From NCBI GenBank assembly GCA_017465225.1, contig JAFTWQ010000009.1, positions 29,342-93,341 on the forward strand: 64,000 nt of DNA, in the 5' to 3' direction. Below, piece after piece: positions 60,101 through 64,000 of this stretch. The notes beneath the pieces are model-generated. The model searched no databases. It had not been told where the DNA came from and saw only the letters and a program-made list of their open reading frames with translations. Position numbers and translations under genes: made by a program. Numbering within the stretch: the stretch's first letter is position 1; each line of letters opens with the position of its first letter. This DNA is from Bacteroidales bacterium (lineage in GTDB: Bacteria > Bacteroidota > Bacteroidia > Bacteroidales > UBA932).

Positions 60101-61420
60101 ATGACTATGCCTATGAAAAGATGTATTGCGGCAATATTGGCTGCTGCAGCTATGTTCCCTGCCCTGGCGCAGGAATATGTTCCGACAAAGGAAAACATTG
60201 AAGCCCGTGAGGCCTTTGCCGACAAGAGGTTCGGTGTGTTCATTCATTGGGGGATATACAGCATGTTCGCCCAGGGTGAGTGGTATATGAACAGGGGCGT
60301 TGATGCTCAGGAATATGCGAAAGCTGCCGGCGGGTTTTATCCTGCGGCTTTCAATGCGCGTGAATGGGTGCAGGCGATAAAGGCTTCCGGAGCGAAGTAT
60401 ATATGTTTCACGACTCGCCATCACGACGGATTCTCCATGTTTGATACGAAAGTGTCGGATTATGACATCATGGATGCTTCTCCGTTCAAGAGGGACATCG
60501 TGGCAGAGCTGGCTGAGGCATGCCGGGACGAAGGAATTGCCCTGCACTTCTATTATTCTCTTCTCGACTGGACGCGGGAGGATTACCCTGTAGGACGAAC
60601 CGGACTCAATACGGGACGCAGAGGTGATTCGCAGGATTATGACAGTTATATGAGGTTCATGAAACATCAGCTGACCGAGCTGCTGACCAATTATGGAGAC
60701 ATAGGGGCCATCTGGTTTGACGGCCTTTGGGACCATGACAGCGATCCGCAGCCTTTCGACTGGCGTCTTGATGAAATCTATTCGCATATCCACTCCGTGG
60801 ATCCTTCATGCCTCATCGGCAATAACCATCATCTTACTCCATTTGAAGGCGAGGATTTCCAGATGTTCGAAAGAGATCTTCCGGGGGAGAATACGACCGG
60901 ATGGGCGGCGGATCAGACAGTGAGCACGCTTCCGCTTGAAATGTGCCAGACGATGAACGGGATGTGGGGCTATAAGGTTGAGGATCAGAATTATAAATCA
61001 GTTGATGAACTGATACGTCTTATCGTCAGGGCCGCATCGAAAGGGTCGAATCTTCTTTTGAATGTCGGACCTCAGCCTGACGGCAATCTGCCAGCTGCCG
61101 CCGTCGAGCGTCTTGCCGGCATAGGCAGATGGATGGAGCAGTTTGGTGAATCGGTCTATGGGACTGATGCTTCGGGTATTCCGGAGCAGAGCTGGGGAGT
61201 GACCACAAGGAAGGGGAATGTGATATACATGCATCTTATCGAGCCTCTGGAAGGAGTGGGCTCCGTAACTCTTCCTGTCGGGACAAAGGTCCGGTCGGTG
61301 AAGGCCATGAAGGACGGCGCTTCACTGAAATACAAAGTGTCTGACGGAAAATTGTTTGTGGAGCTCGACAAGACGCCTGCAGATGTGGATTATGTGATCG
61401 AGGTGCATCTTAAGGATTGA
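60101..61420 (+). CDS. GH29 alpha-L-fucosidase
   Basis: 439 aa from the ATG at 60101; ATGs at 60107 and 60113 (MKRCIAAILAAAAMFPALAQ) are also possible, and the last gives the neatest signal peptide. GH29 barrel: RFGVFIHWGIYSMFAQGEWY, YICFTTRHHDGFSMFDT, FYYSLLDWTREDYPV and the nucleophile Asp in IGAIWFDGLWDHD. A beta-sandwich closes the protein (about 345-439). It should remove alpha-linked fucose in the periplasm. Its end overlaps the convergent alkyltransferase gene by 11 nt. Confidence 0.93.
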   Translation: MTMPMKRCIAAILAAAAMFPALAQEYVPTKENIEAREAFADKRFGVFIHWGIYSMFAQGEWYMNRGVDAQEYAKAAGGFYPAAFNAREWVQAIKASGAKYICFTTRHHDGFSMFDTKVSDYDIMDASPFKRDIVAELAEACRDEGIALHFYYSLLDWTREDYPVGRTGLNTGRRGDSQDYDSYMRFMKHQLTELLTNYGDIGAIWFDGLWDHDSDPQPFDWRLDEIYSHIHSVDPSCLIGNNHHLTPFEGEDFQMFERDLPGENTTGWAADQTVSTLPLEMCQTMNGMWGYKVEDQNYKSVDELIRLIVRAASKGSNLLLNVGPQPDGNLPAAAVERLAGIGRWMEQFGESVYGTDASGIPEQSWGVTTRKGNVIYMHLIEPLEGVGSVTLPVGTKVRSVKAMKDGASLKYKVSDGKLFVELDKTPADVDYVIEVHLKD

Positions 61421-61991
61421 TGCCTTGCTCCAGTTCCATCTTTATAAGTTCGCGTTTGAGTCTCTTTCCTAAGGCATATTCGCCGAAATCGATGGAATTG
61501 TTGTCAAGGATGCTTTTCATGCAGAGGTCATCACCCTTGAATATGGTGGCCTCTGCTCTTTTTTGTATTGCAGCTATCTTGTCGATGGATTCCTTTGGTA
61601 TTACAAGGTGGCATGGGATGATGACGGATACCGGATTCAGTCCGATGGCATGGGCGACCGCGCGCACGCCGGCCTTGTTCTGACACAAGTCAGCGAAGTC
61701 GCTGTAGCTGATCAGATGCGGGGGGCGTGCCTCTTCCCTGAGTCCGAAAAGTTTTTTCCACACCTTCTTCTGAAAATCGGTGCCGAACAGCAGCAGGTCC
61801 TCCCATGCCGTGCTTCTGCGGAGTTCCCAGACATGATCGAAGTCCACGGTCTCAGCGCATATCCTGGCATATGCAGGGCTCTTCTGCGCTGCAATCCTGG
61901 CGGCAATGTCCGCCAGCGCCTTATAGTCAGTCGATACGGAGGCTATCTTCCCATCAATACGGACGACAACCCATTTCCGGTCAGTATCCAT
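61410..61991 (-). CDS. Methylated-DNA-protein cysteine methyltransferase (Ogt-like)
   Basis: 193 aa from the ATG ending at 61991 (MDTDRKWVVVRIDG); an upstream ATG at 62054 would add 21 residues that do not resemble a family N-terminus. The DNA-binding domain shows TDFQKKVWKKLFGL, ISYSDFADLCQNKAGVRAVA and the alkyl-acceptor Cys in NPVSVIIPCHLVIPK. The enzyme takes the methyl group from O6-methylguanine onto that Cys and is used once. A C-terminal extension of about 40 residues (DFGEYALGKRLKRELIK) is less usual. It overlaps the end of the GH29 gene. Confidence 0.9.
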   Translation of the reverse strand: MDTDRKWVVVRIDGKIASVSTDYKALADIAARIAAQKSPAYARICAETVDFDHVWELRRSTAWEDLLLFGTDFQKKVWKKLFGLREEARPPHLISYSDFADLCQNKAGVRAVAHAIGLNPVSVIIPCHLVIPKESIDKIAAIQKRAEATIFKGDDLCMKSILDNNSIDFGEYALGKRLKRELIKMELEQGINP

Positions 61992-62124
61992 AATCGTTAA
62001 GCAGTATGGTGATTTTACAAATTTGCTCTGTTTCCTGCCCGCCGCCTCTGCCATTCCTCACATTTCATTTCCCGCCGTCATTCCCATAATATCGTCTCTT
62101 ATCATTCCCGTCAAGTCGTTCCTC

Positions 62125-62150
62125 GTCGCTCCCGTCTTGACCGGGAATCT
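62125..62150 (+). repeat. Degenerate copy of the GTCAT...ATCT hairpin repeat
   Basis: Reads GTCGCTCCCGTCTTGACCGG then GAATCT, a diverged copy of the 27-nt repeats at 62234 and 63711. Further fragments (GTCATTCCC) lie at 62077-62085. Together with the repeats listed below it fills the gene-free stretch 62055-62463. Confidence 0.6.
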
Positions 62151-62233
62151 CCCAACTCCCAAATATACAAAAAGTTATGGAATATCCTGCAATTTATCAT
62201 AGAAACAGATATCTCCACCCGCTCCGCTCTCTT

Positions 62234-62260
62234 CGTCATTCCCGGCCTGACCGGGAATCT
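62234..62260 (+). repeat. 27-nt hairpin repeat, left copy
   Basis: Starts CGTCATTCCCGG, loop cctga, ends CCGGGAATCT; an 8-bp stem ATTCCCGG/CCGGGAAT. Identical to the right copy at 63711-63737. Confidence 0.85.
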
Positions 62261-62286
62261 TTAGAGATGGCAGAGTGGTCAGCTGG

Positions 62287-62398
62287 CCGTCCGACATCAA
62301 AATGGCGAAAAACATGATGGACGGTCCCGTTTTGGGGTGTTTTGCCGCCGTTTTCGGCACCGTCCGACATGAAATCGCCCAAAAAGTTGTCGGACGGT
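62287..62398 (+). repeat. 112-nt double-hairpin repeat, left copy
   Basis: Holds two hairpins: CCGTCC (62287-62292)...GGACGG and, further on, ACCGTCCGACA with its complement TGTCGGACGGT (ending 62398). CCGTCCGACAT occurs twice as a direct repeat inside the unit. It matches the copy at 63521-63632 except at 5 positions and ends 65 nt from the transposase-like gene. Confidence 0.85.
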
Positions 62399-62463
62399 GT
62401 CTGGAAGCCAGAGGTGGGCGGTCAGAATGGGATGTCAGAGACCGGTCATAAGGTGGCGGGAGT

Positions 62464-63384
62464 TTATTTCGGAAGCACAAGACAACGGCGTATCTGGGAT
62501 TCGCTGAGGTGGCGAACCCTGTAAAAATGTTCGGCTATGGCCTGTTTTTCTTTTAATGTCAGCTGATATACGGATTGCCTGCCGTACCTGTTGCGGGCCA
62601 GCGCGTCCAGTTCCGTGCAAAGATCTATATCTGACAGACTCCTGCAGTCAGCCTTCCCGCTCTCAAATATCAGCATCTTGGATTCATCATGCATGTTTAC
62701 CCCATGTTCAATGCTGAGTAGATTGATGGGAGGCAGGCCGTTGGCGTCTTTCTTTTGTTCCGCCTCCCACTCCTCCGATGATTTTCTGCTCATATGGAAG
62801 TTGAACGCTCGCGGTGTCCCGTAGAGGGCTTCCATCTGCGGGATGTCCAGCACGCTTTCCCTGGTGAACACTCCGCTTGCCGTCATCTTGTAACTGTCGG
62901 GATATTCTGCGTATCTTCCTAGAAATCTTGAATATGATCTGGCCGGCAGAAACGCTTCGTCATGTAACTTGCCCATCTCTCTCCGGAAGATGGCGTTTGC
63001 AGAGCAGTGTGGATAAGCAAAAGGCAGCGGGGCAACACCATGGTGCAGAGCATTCCTTAATATATAGCTCGCAGCTGCAATGGTGTGATGATGTCCGACC
63101 ACTTCTAATGTGAAATGAATGTCTTCCCCAAGCCTGCCCGACCGGCCGTACTTATTGTTGAAATATTTGGCGTACGGATTACGGAAGTTGAACATCAGGT
63201 CTTTTGGAGCATGAGCCTGCACGAGTTTGTGCGCATGCGTGGACATGAATGATTCGACAAGGCCGGTGCTGTCGGTCTTGTATAGCGCCAAAGCAAAACA
63301 GTTGAATCCTCTGTAGTAGTCTTCGAGGTCCCTGAACAAGGCCTCTTCTCCTGCCGAAAGGCAGAGATGGTAAGTTCTTTTCAT
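62464..63384 (-). CDS. REP-associated tyrosine transposase-like protein (RAYT, Y1 family)
   Basis: 306 aa. The order of motifs is that of RAYT/IS200-like Y1 proteins: N-terminal YHLCLSAGEEALFRDLEDYY, a HUH-type metal site in FMSTHAHKLV (His50, His52), the short YGRSGRLGEDIHF strand, and the presumed nucleophile Tyr107 in ASYILRNALHHGV. The C-terminal part (about 265-306) is a helix-turn-helix (LTLKEKQAIAEHFYRVRHLS ending ESQIRRCL). RAYTs nick and join single-stranded DNA at REP hairpins, usually keep single copy and are thought to spread REPs. This one lies between direct copies of two hairpin repeat families. No sign of a frameshift. The family call rests on motif order only. Confidence 0.8.
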   Translation of the reverse strand: MKRTYHLCLSAGEEALFRDLEDYYRGFNCFALALYKTDSTGLVESFMSTHAHKLVQAHAPKDLMFNFRNPYAKYFNNKYGRSGRLGEDIHFTLEVVGHHHTIAAASYILRNALHHGVAPLPFAYPHCSANAIFRREMGKLHDEAFLPARSYSRFLGRYAEYPDSYKMTASGVFTRESVLDIPQMEALYGTPRAFNFHMSRKSSEEWEAEQKKDANGLPPINLLSIEHGVNMHDESKMLIFESGKADCRSLSDIDLCTELDALARNRYGRQSVYQLTLKEKQAIAEHFYRVRHLSESQIRRCLVLPK

Positions 63385-63520
63385 ACATTTTATCTTTTGC
63401 TCGTTCCTTCTCTTCTGTCATTCTCCGCATCTCCCTTGAAATGTCATGAAGTCAGTACAAATCTATAAAAAGATTCTCTTATCCCGTGTAGATATCTTCC
63501 GGAAAATGTTGCTGTTCAGA

Positions 63521-63632
63521 CCGTCCGACATAAAAATGGCGAAAAACATGATGGACGGTCCCGTTTTGGGATGTTTCACCGCCGTTTTCGGCACCGTCCG
63601 ACATAAAATCGCCCAAAAAGTTGTCGGACGGT
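63521..63632 (+). repeat. 112-nt double-hairpin repeat, right copy
   Basis: Direct copy of 62287-62398 with 5 substitutions. It lies upstream of the start codon of the minus-strand transposase-like gene. Together with the repeat at 63711 it accounts for the gene-free stretch 63385-63877; the ORFs readable through it are by-products of the repeat. Confidence 0.85.
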
Positions 63633-63710
63633 CTGTCGTTGCGCTTCGGGAGGGATGGCATTGTGTTTTTCTGGGAGGAACGCTGGGTGTGGAGATATCT
63701 CCGCTCCCTC

Positions 63711-63737
63711 CGTCATTCCCGGCCTGACCGGGAATCT
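63711..63737 (+). repeat. 27-nt hairpin repeat, right copy
   Basis: Identical to 62234-62260 and in the same orientation. It lies 55 nt before the -33 box of rpsL. Confidence 0.85.
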
Positions 63738-63877: not shown

Positions 63878-64000
63878 ATGCCTACAATTCAACAATTAGT
63901 TCGCAAAGGACGCGAGGTTATCGTCGAGAAGAGCAAATCTCGCGCGTTGGATGCTTGTCCTCAGAGAAGAGGCGTATGCGTACGTGTGTACACAACTACA
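63878..64000 (+). CDS. rpsL: Ribosomal protein S12 (start only)
   Basis: The first 41 residues are in the window: [18 protein letters not shown] then [15 protein letters not shown], the conserved N-terminus of S12, a protein of the decoding centre of the 30S subunit. The gene continues past the right edge. In most bacteria it opens the str operon (rpsL, rpsG, fusA). Confidence 0.96.

Follow-up and report, generated by a model that had tools for sequence, protein, structure and literature searches.

How does a single transposase-like gene hold one genomic site in several species, flanked by hairpins that differ between those species and yet match each other at each locus? The question is raised by the window, a stretch of 64,000 nt from a Bacteroidales genome (G000: 2.35 Mb, 90 contigs, 78% complete), the closest named records of which are Bacteroidales MAGs, mostly ruminant by their titles. 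In two of the species one hairpin unit has apparently been overwritten by the other in opposite directions, and the loci thus offer natural before-and-after states, together with many enzyme-hairpin pairs for tests of specificity. The way in which RAYTs spread REPs is described as unresolved (PMC8266576), as is the reason why hosts keep the RAYT gene (PMC6006769).

The RAYT locus of the window

The original prediction described a 306-aa protein with HUH and Tyr motifs between repeats of the same orientation, and the open reading frame, its STHAH and YILRNALHHG motifs and both layers of repeats were confirmed (Table 1). The gene opposite rpsL, which had been taken for rsmA, is a methylguanine-DNA methyltransferase-like (MGMT-like) gene instead. 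Contigs break inside rpsL in several other genomes of the genus as well.

Table 1. Coordinates of the RAYT locus in the window
Feature	Position	Strand	Remarks
RAYT-like Y1/HUH gene, 306 aa	62464..63384	-	H50-A-H52 and Y107 invariant (14 orthologs); homology chain
Upstream double-hairpin unit	63521..63632	-	40-nt hairpin, ~32-nt spacer, 40-nt hairpin; end 137 nt before start codon
Downstream double-hairpin unit	62287..62398	-	Direct repeat of upstream unit, 107/112
Leader, 136 nt, upstream unit to start codon	63385..63520	-	TAGATTTG 81 nt before start
CGTC-tagged REP hairpin, right copy	63711..63737	+	Dispersed repeat, probably outside unit
CGTC-tagged REP hairpin, left copy	62234..62260	+	
Third, weaker copy (72%) of 39-nt repeat	62112..62150	+	
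Methylguanine-DNA methyltransferase-like gene, shared neighbour	61410..62054	-	PF01035
rpsL start, shared neighbour	63878..64000	+	Contig ends inside rpsL

A diverged Y1/HUH lineage

The window protein has no significant match in Pfam, NCBIfam or PHROGs and is missed by all three; Pfam Y1_Tnp is not reached by the protein itself, and a sequence search of solved structures returned one chance-level match only. Homologs from Clostridium and other organisms were found at 24-32% identity, and one of them (L059) scores Pfam Y1_Tnp at 4.3e-12. When a profile of 14 orthologs was aligned by hhalign with one of 10 canonical Y1 homologs, a match of 98.3% (E 2.4e-14, 132 columns) was obtained, in which STHAH pairs with SNHVH and YILRN with YIHLN, so that both the HUH and the Tyr motifs are aligned. 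The residues H50, H52 and Y107 are invariant in the 14 ortholog rows, and also in 12 rows that include two canonical homologs. Through the intermediate homologs and the profile comparison the protein is placed in the Y1 HUH (IS200/RAYT) superfamily, which bears out the earlier call of a RAYT-like protein; Pfam alone finds no Y1 domain, and no profile search placed the protein outside the Y1/HUH family. The suggestion of a distinct lineage was likewise supported. A C-terminal extension of ~165 aa is conserved within the lineage, and its end looks, by eye, like a helix-turn-helix.

Across the family, 89 of 199 genomes contain homologs (E <= 1e-5); a genome has at most nine matches, and each of the 12 ortholog genomes has between two and nine. 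In the six genomes compared, homologs of the same genome that could be aligned over most of their length share 20-69% identity, and are therefore not recent copies. Two other homologs have their own peculiarities. At L207 the homolog (64%) carries one in-frame TAA, and by eye the upstream double hairpin is present and only a fragment is left downstream. The RAYT of L003 (61%) lies on a short contig that may be an assembly join; we take its neighbours to be rplP, rpmC and rpsQ from their appearance, in which case rpsC would be expected at the position of the RAYT.

Double hairpins as direct brackets

The two 112-nt units of the window differ at 5 positions (95.5% identity by BLAST), and the two hairpins of a unit share one stem. 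For a 39-nt part of the unit, 0.00 matches were expected from 100 shuffles of the window. Folded as single-stranded DNA, the two units gave z scores of -3.90 and -4.15, with the hairpins folding on each other; the hairpins inside the unit are palindromic and align both ways, direct or inverted. Stem pairing is kept despite changes of the stem sequence, in 115 of 130 cells over 13 hairpins (arm-swap mean 68), and with one hairpin per type in 63 of 70 cells at seven loci (arm-swap mean 36), a value that none of 2000 swaps attained. A GT[AG]G tag was not enriched at the edges of the outer hairpins (7 of 58 units versus 12% in shuffled sequence), and none of the seven is one of the two window units.

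The brackets recur around homologous genes. Within 700 nt of the gene, 29 of 63 RAYT loci carry direct repeats of 60 nt or more versus 0 of 90 control ORFs, with a Fisher P of 5e-14 that serves as a guide only, since some of the loci are related to each other and the control flanks are unmatched for non-coding length. One further locus of the 63 has only an inverted repeat of at least 60 nt, and at L075, one of the 29, the longer repeat is inverted. An 8-nt hairpin stem shared by both sides was present at 29 of 63 RAYT loci, 0 of 90 controls and 0 of 1260 shuffled flanks. Either the direct repeat or the shared stem was found at 38 of the 63 loci and neither at 25; three duplicates (L128, L141, L145) and one locus with a short flank (L085) are not among the 63. 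By eye, the orthologs scored as negative include L047 and L055 with decayed units on both sides and L053 with one on a single side. Among 15 later loci outside the 63 (E limit 1e-4, usable flanks), direct repeats reach 60 nt or more in four, one has a repeat of 39 nt, one an inverted repeat, and nine nothing by the repeat test; L210, among the later direct-repeat loci, is the gene of L056, and three more later loci have short flanks.

Double-hairpin units of this layout but of other sequence surround most orthologs and many distant homologs, the two units being in direct orientation; the earlier proposal of a hairpin-bracketed unit is upheld. From the end of the upstream unit to the start codon the median distance is 137 nt (range 80-281). 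Cognate hairpins flank the gene in the window and in many of its homologs, as in a REPtron, and the pairs look private: within G000 there is no match among the units of the window, L003 and L005. One RAYT, at L048 (2450-4287), is preceded by three tandem double-hairpin units and followed by one and a half.

Turnover between species and matching within a locus

Within each of the 12 loci compared, the two units are 82-100% identical. Where two loci share ~70-76% coding identity, the identity between their units is only 47-63%, close to shuffled sequence, for which the mean was 48% and the largest value 56%. L048 and L049 do not fit this pattern simply: at 96% coding identity their units reach only 65-69%, in part because the alignments cover unequal lengths (134 and 99 nt).

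An alpha and a beta form of the unit can be told apart at ten diagnostic columns. L044 has alpha upstream (10 columns) and beta downstream (9), and L190 has beta downstream (9). The upstream unit of L046 is a mosaic of 6 alpha and 4 beta columns interspersed, with beta downstream (9), and that of L047 has 5 alpha, 2 beta and 3 neither. The window carries beta on both sides (upstream 9, downstream 10), and L045 alpha on both sides (10 and 10). The simplest reading of these columns is that alpha upstream and beta downstream would be ancestral, and that the window and L045 would each have been homogenised, in opposite directions. Near-identity of the copies had been ascribed to recent duplication or gene conversion; a conversion-like likeness is what the within-locus identity and the diagnostic columns support.

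Copies of the double hairpin elsewhere

Both repeats of the window have further copies in G000, as the original prediction required, although the 112-nt unit has only three, all decayed (two on C66, one on C47; E up to 2e-5, matches with E > 0.2 not being counted). The L003-type unit has two other places (C17, C59), and the L005-type unit no other copy in G000 at E <= 0.01. When the 12 ortholog genomes were searched, 19 window-type matches were found in G258, 22 in G265 and 18 in G266, which we grouped into ~10, ~15 and ~12 places outside RAYT flanks, some of one hairpin only; of the other ortholog genomes, five show between one and three matches and four show none. In these dispersed units both hairpins pair at at least 8 of 10 positions at 17 of 19 loci versus 48 of 380 shuffles. 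With one dispersed unit as query, only window-type flanks matched among the RAYT flanks searched. The L048-type unit was found mainly in G261 and G262 and weakly in three window-type genomes, and the L052-type unit matched only in G263 and G264. Judged by these matches, dispersal of the units is present but patchy.

Several further arrangements were seen. In G265 no RAYT more than 70% identical to the window RAYT was found. Some dispersed units of G258, G265 and G266 (L171-L189) share longer flanks by eye, which suggests larger repeated modules. The L048 genome has three more places of its unit (C51, C49, C35) and a fragment. At L042 (2808-3667; G000 C66:10807-11666) a bracket without a RAYT is made up of two decayed double hairpins in direct orientation, ~738 nt apart; it encloses a 154-aa lipoprotein-like ORF, and the duplicated stretch extends beyond the hairpins by eye.

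A model of copying in place, and homologous recombination

E. coli TnpAREP cleaves and rejoins REP strands (PMC6006769, PMC8266576). We favour, with some rather than great confidence, a model in which a resident domesticated RAYT of a diverged Y1/HUH lineage and its own double-hairpin substrate make up a REPtron-like unit, whose hairpin pair the enzyme, or else recombination, would keep matched. The substrate would be the REPIN-like double hairpin, with one copy immediately before the likely promoter and another, in direct orientation to it, shortly after the stop codon. Because known RAYTs act on REP strands in this way, single-strand action on the units is proposed: the enzyme would bind the hairpins while the strand is single, on the lagging strand or during repair, and would nick and rejoin it through Y107. 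One unit could thereby be copied over the other, and occasionally to new intergenic sites, while the gene itself does not move. The specificities of enzyme and hairpin would change in step and leave a private hairpin for each of the several RAYTs of a genome. Against the model count the three decayed copies of the window unit in G000 and the absence of L005-type copies there, which give no sign of active dissemination, as well as the 25 loci without either kind of bracket, the GT[AG]G tag at chance level, the low unit identity of L048 and L049 and the mosaic of L046. More tentatively, there may be a family of domesticated transposases that each rewrite a private hairpin pair in place and keep it matched, with codes that co-drift and with independent pairs inside one genome.

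The matching of two sides could also be the work of ordinary homologous recombination, with the enzyme acting on hairpins elsewhere or not at all, which we regard as rather unlikely and still as a serious competitor. Near-identical direct repeats ~1.2 kb apart are a normal substrate of conversion, and the alpha/beta mosaic upstream at L046 is what partial conversion tracts could give. Recombination between direct repeats should delete the gene too, but several species retain it at the one site; passive conversion leaves unexplained both the recurrence of pairs around homologs with unrelated hairpins and the scattered single units in relatives.

Relation to known systems

REPtrons, REPINs and the atypical subclass 2.6 of Bacteroidetes are described in the available text of PMC6006769, PMC3116915 and PMC8266576; direct double-hairpin brackets, a lineage outside the profile libraries and two-way overwriting were not found in the literature searched, that on Bacteroidales included. 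As those sources present REPtrons, the likeness lies in a Y1/HUH protein, a resident gene, imperfect flanking hairpins, one hairpin type per gene and the possibility of several genes per genome. Here the gene is longer (~306 aa), the HUH motif is of the form TH-x-H and the Tyr motif YxLRNxxHHG; the GT[AG]G tag that marks the hairpin foot in REPtrons is not enriched, dispersed copies in G000 are few or none, and the double-hairpin brackets are direct. The unit resembles a REPIN, given in PMC3116915 as a REP doublet forming a hairpin, in having two hairpins and a spacer in ~110 nt, which in the window units fold on each other, and differs in its low copy number in G000 and in the different sequences that accompany each RAYT. 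The two REPs of a REPIN are inverted to one another, whereas the palindromic hairpins of the unit can be aligned either way.

TnpAY1 subclass 2.6, or Bertels group 5, is summarised in PMC6006769 as mostly Bacteroidetes, with a median length of 179 aa and the motifs NH[LIV]H and YIH[QN]NP. Bacteroidetes, atypical secondary structures around the gene and genome copies elsewhere are points of likeness. Membership was rejected, for the length and motifs of the window protein do not fit that description. TIRtrons or TIRYTs (subclass 2.1), as outlined in PMC3733652 and PMC6006769, likewise have long repeats and a Y1 gene with a C-terminal extension. Their repeats are inverted, whereas those of the window are direct, as are some at 29 of the 30 loci with repeats of at least 60 nt.

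The leader and a role at the RNA level

The promoter-like motif TAnnTTTG is present in 17 of 29 leaders versus 6.7% in shuffles, and lies 80-91 nt before the start codon in 15 of these 17; the other 12 leaders are without it. In the leader of the window we take TAGATTTG to resemble the Bacteroidetes -7 promoter motif. Since TAnnTTTG lies downstream of the upstream unit, this unit would be outside the mRNA, which favours a role at the DNA level. That the hairpins are instead RNA-level elements, terminators or stabilisers of mRNA with a regulatory association to the gene, is unlikely: the position of the motif in 15 leaders would leave the upstream unit out of the transcript, there is no match in Rfam, and matching of the two sides is not predicted, even though the downstream unit can be transcribed and such REP roles have been proposed (PMC3733652, in the text available).

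Residence of the gene

Among 13 orthologous loci, rpsL stands beside the RAYT in four, the MGMT-like gene in seven, and one or the other in eight; because these eight share a neighbour, the RAYT gene appears resident. At 30 rpsL loci of genus members no RAYT was present in the fetched flanks and no clean empty site was found; four of them (L100, L111, L125, L126) end less than 300 nt upstream of rpsL, and six have an MGMT-like match. At four of these six (L102, L116, L119, L120), with divergent MGMT and rpsL, the region between appears by eye to hold other coding sequence.

An autonomous IS200/IS605-like insertion sequence with hairpin ends, still moving as a whole, is a very improbable account of the locus and was rejected. 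Hairpins near both ends are a trait of Y1 transposons, according to the text available of PMC6006769. The genomic site is common to several species, the within-genome divergence in six genomes leaves no close copies, and the several near-identical mobile copies that mark IS200/IS605 elements were not found in the genomes compared. No match at E <= 1e-5 was obtained in plasmids (72,556 records) or phages (50,697 records), nor any in viral contigs, searched with two short patterns only.

The CGTC-tagged outer hairpin

The second repeat of the window, 39 nt long, is found at 62222-62260 and 63699-63737 with 95% identity, and its inner 27 nt are identical. For a 24-nt part of this 27-nt hairpin 0.00 matches were expected (100 window shuffles), and its fold as single-stranded DNA gave a z of -3.83. 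CGTC REPs are defined by a CGTC tag, a stem of 8-9 bp beginning AT and a loop of 4-5 nt, as given in the available text of PMC3733652; the window hairpin has the tag, an 8-bp stem beginning AT and a 5-nt loop. In G000 there are 19 matches to it with up to three mismatches, and a reversed control gave none. Three of the 19 are at the RAYT locus and 16 away from it, and the family shows compensatory stem changes, such as ATTCCC/GGGAAT, ATTGCC/GGCAAT and ATCCCC/GGGGAT.

In a strict scan of 47 loci, only the window and L046 have the CGTC hairpin both upstream and downstream of the gene; L044 has it downstream only, and the other eleven orthologous loci have none. The earlier design of two hairpin families was therefore not supported, and the CGTC hairpin was rejected as a general second layer. 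The least probable of all the accounts, a single unit in which the CGTC hairpin is a second substrate of the same enzyme, could draw on the hairpins outside both units in the window and at L046, on weaker look-alikes on both sides in L044 and L045, on the only two perfect-stem CGTC hairpins of the 64-kb window being this pair, on a CGTC hairpin inside the upstream copy of a 202-nt direct repeat at L072, and on all CGTC matches in the 47 loci lying within 460 nt of the gene, a count biased by the concentration of intergenic DNA beside the gene; against it stand the 16 matches elsewhere in the genome and the absence of strict hits from 11 of the 13 orthologous loci and from the four other RAYTs of G000.

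In the available text of PMC3733652 no CGTC repeat was found flanking a transposase gene, unlike the window hairpin, which otherwise fits that family. The pair around the window RAYT is probably an exception by location, a dispersed REP rather than a layer of the unit. Distant homologs at L070, L071, L072 and L080 have a CGTC hairpin on one side.
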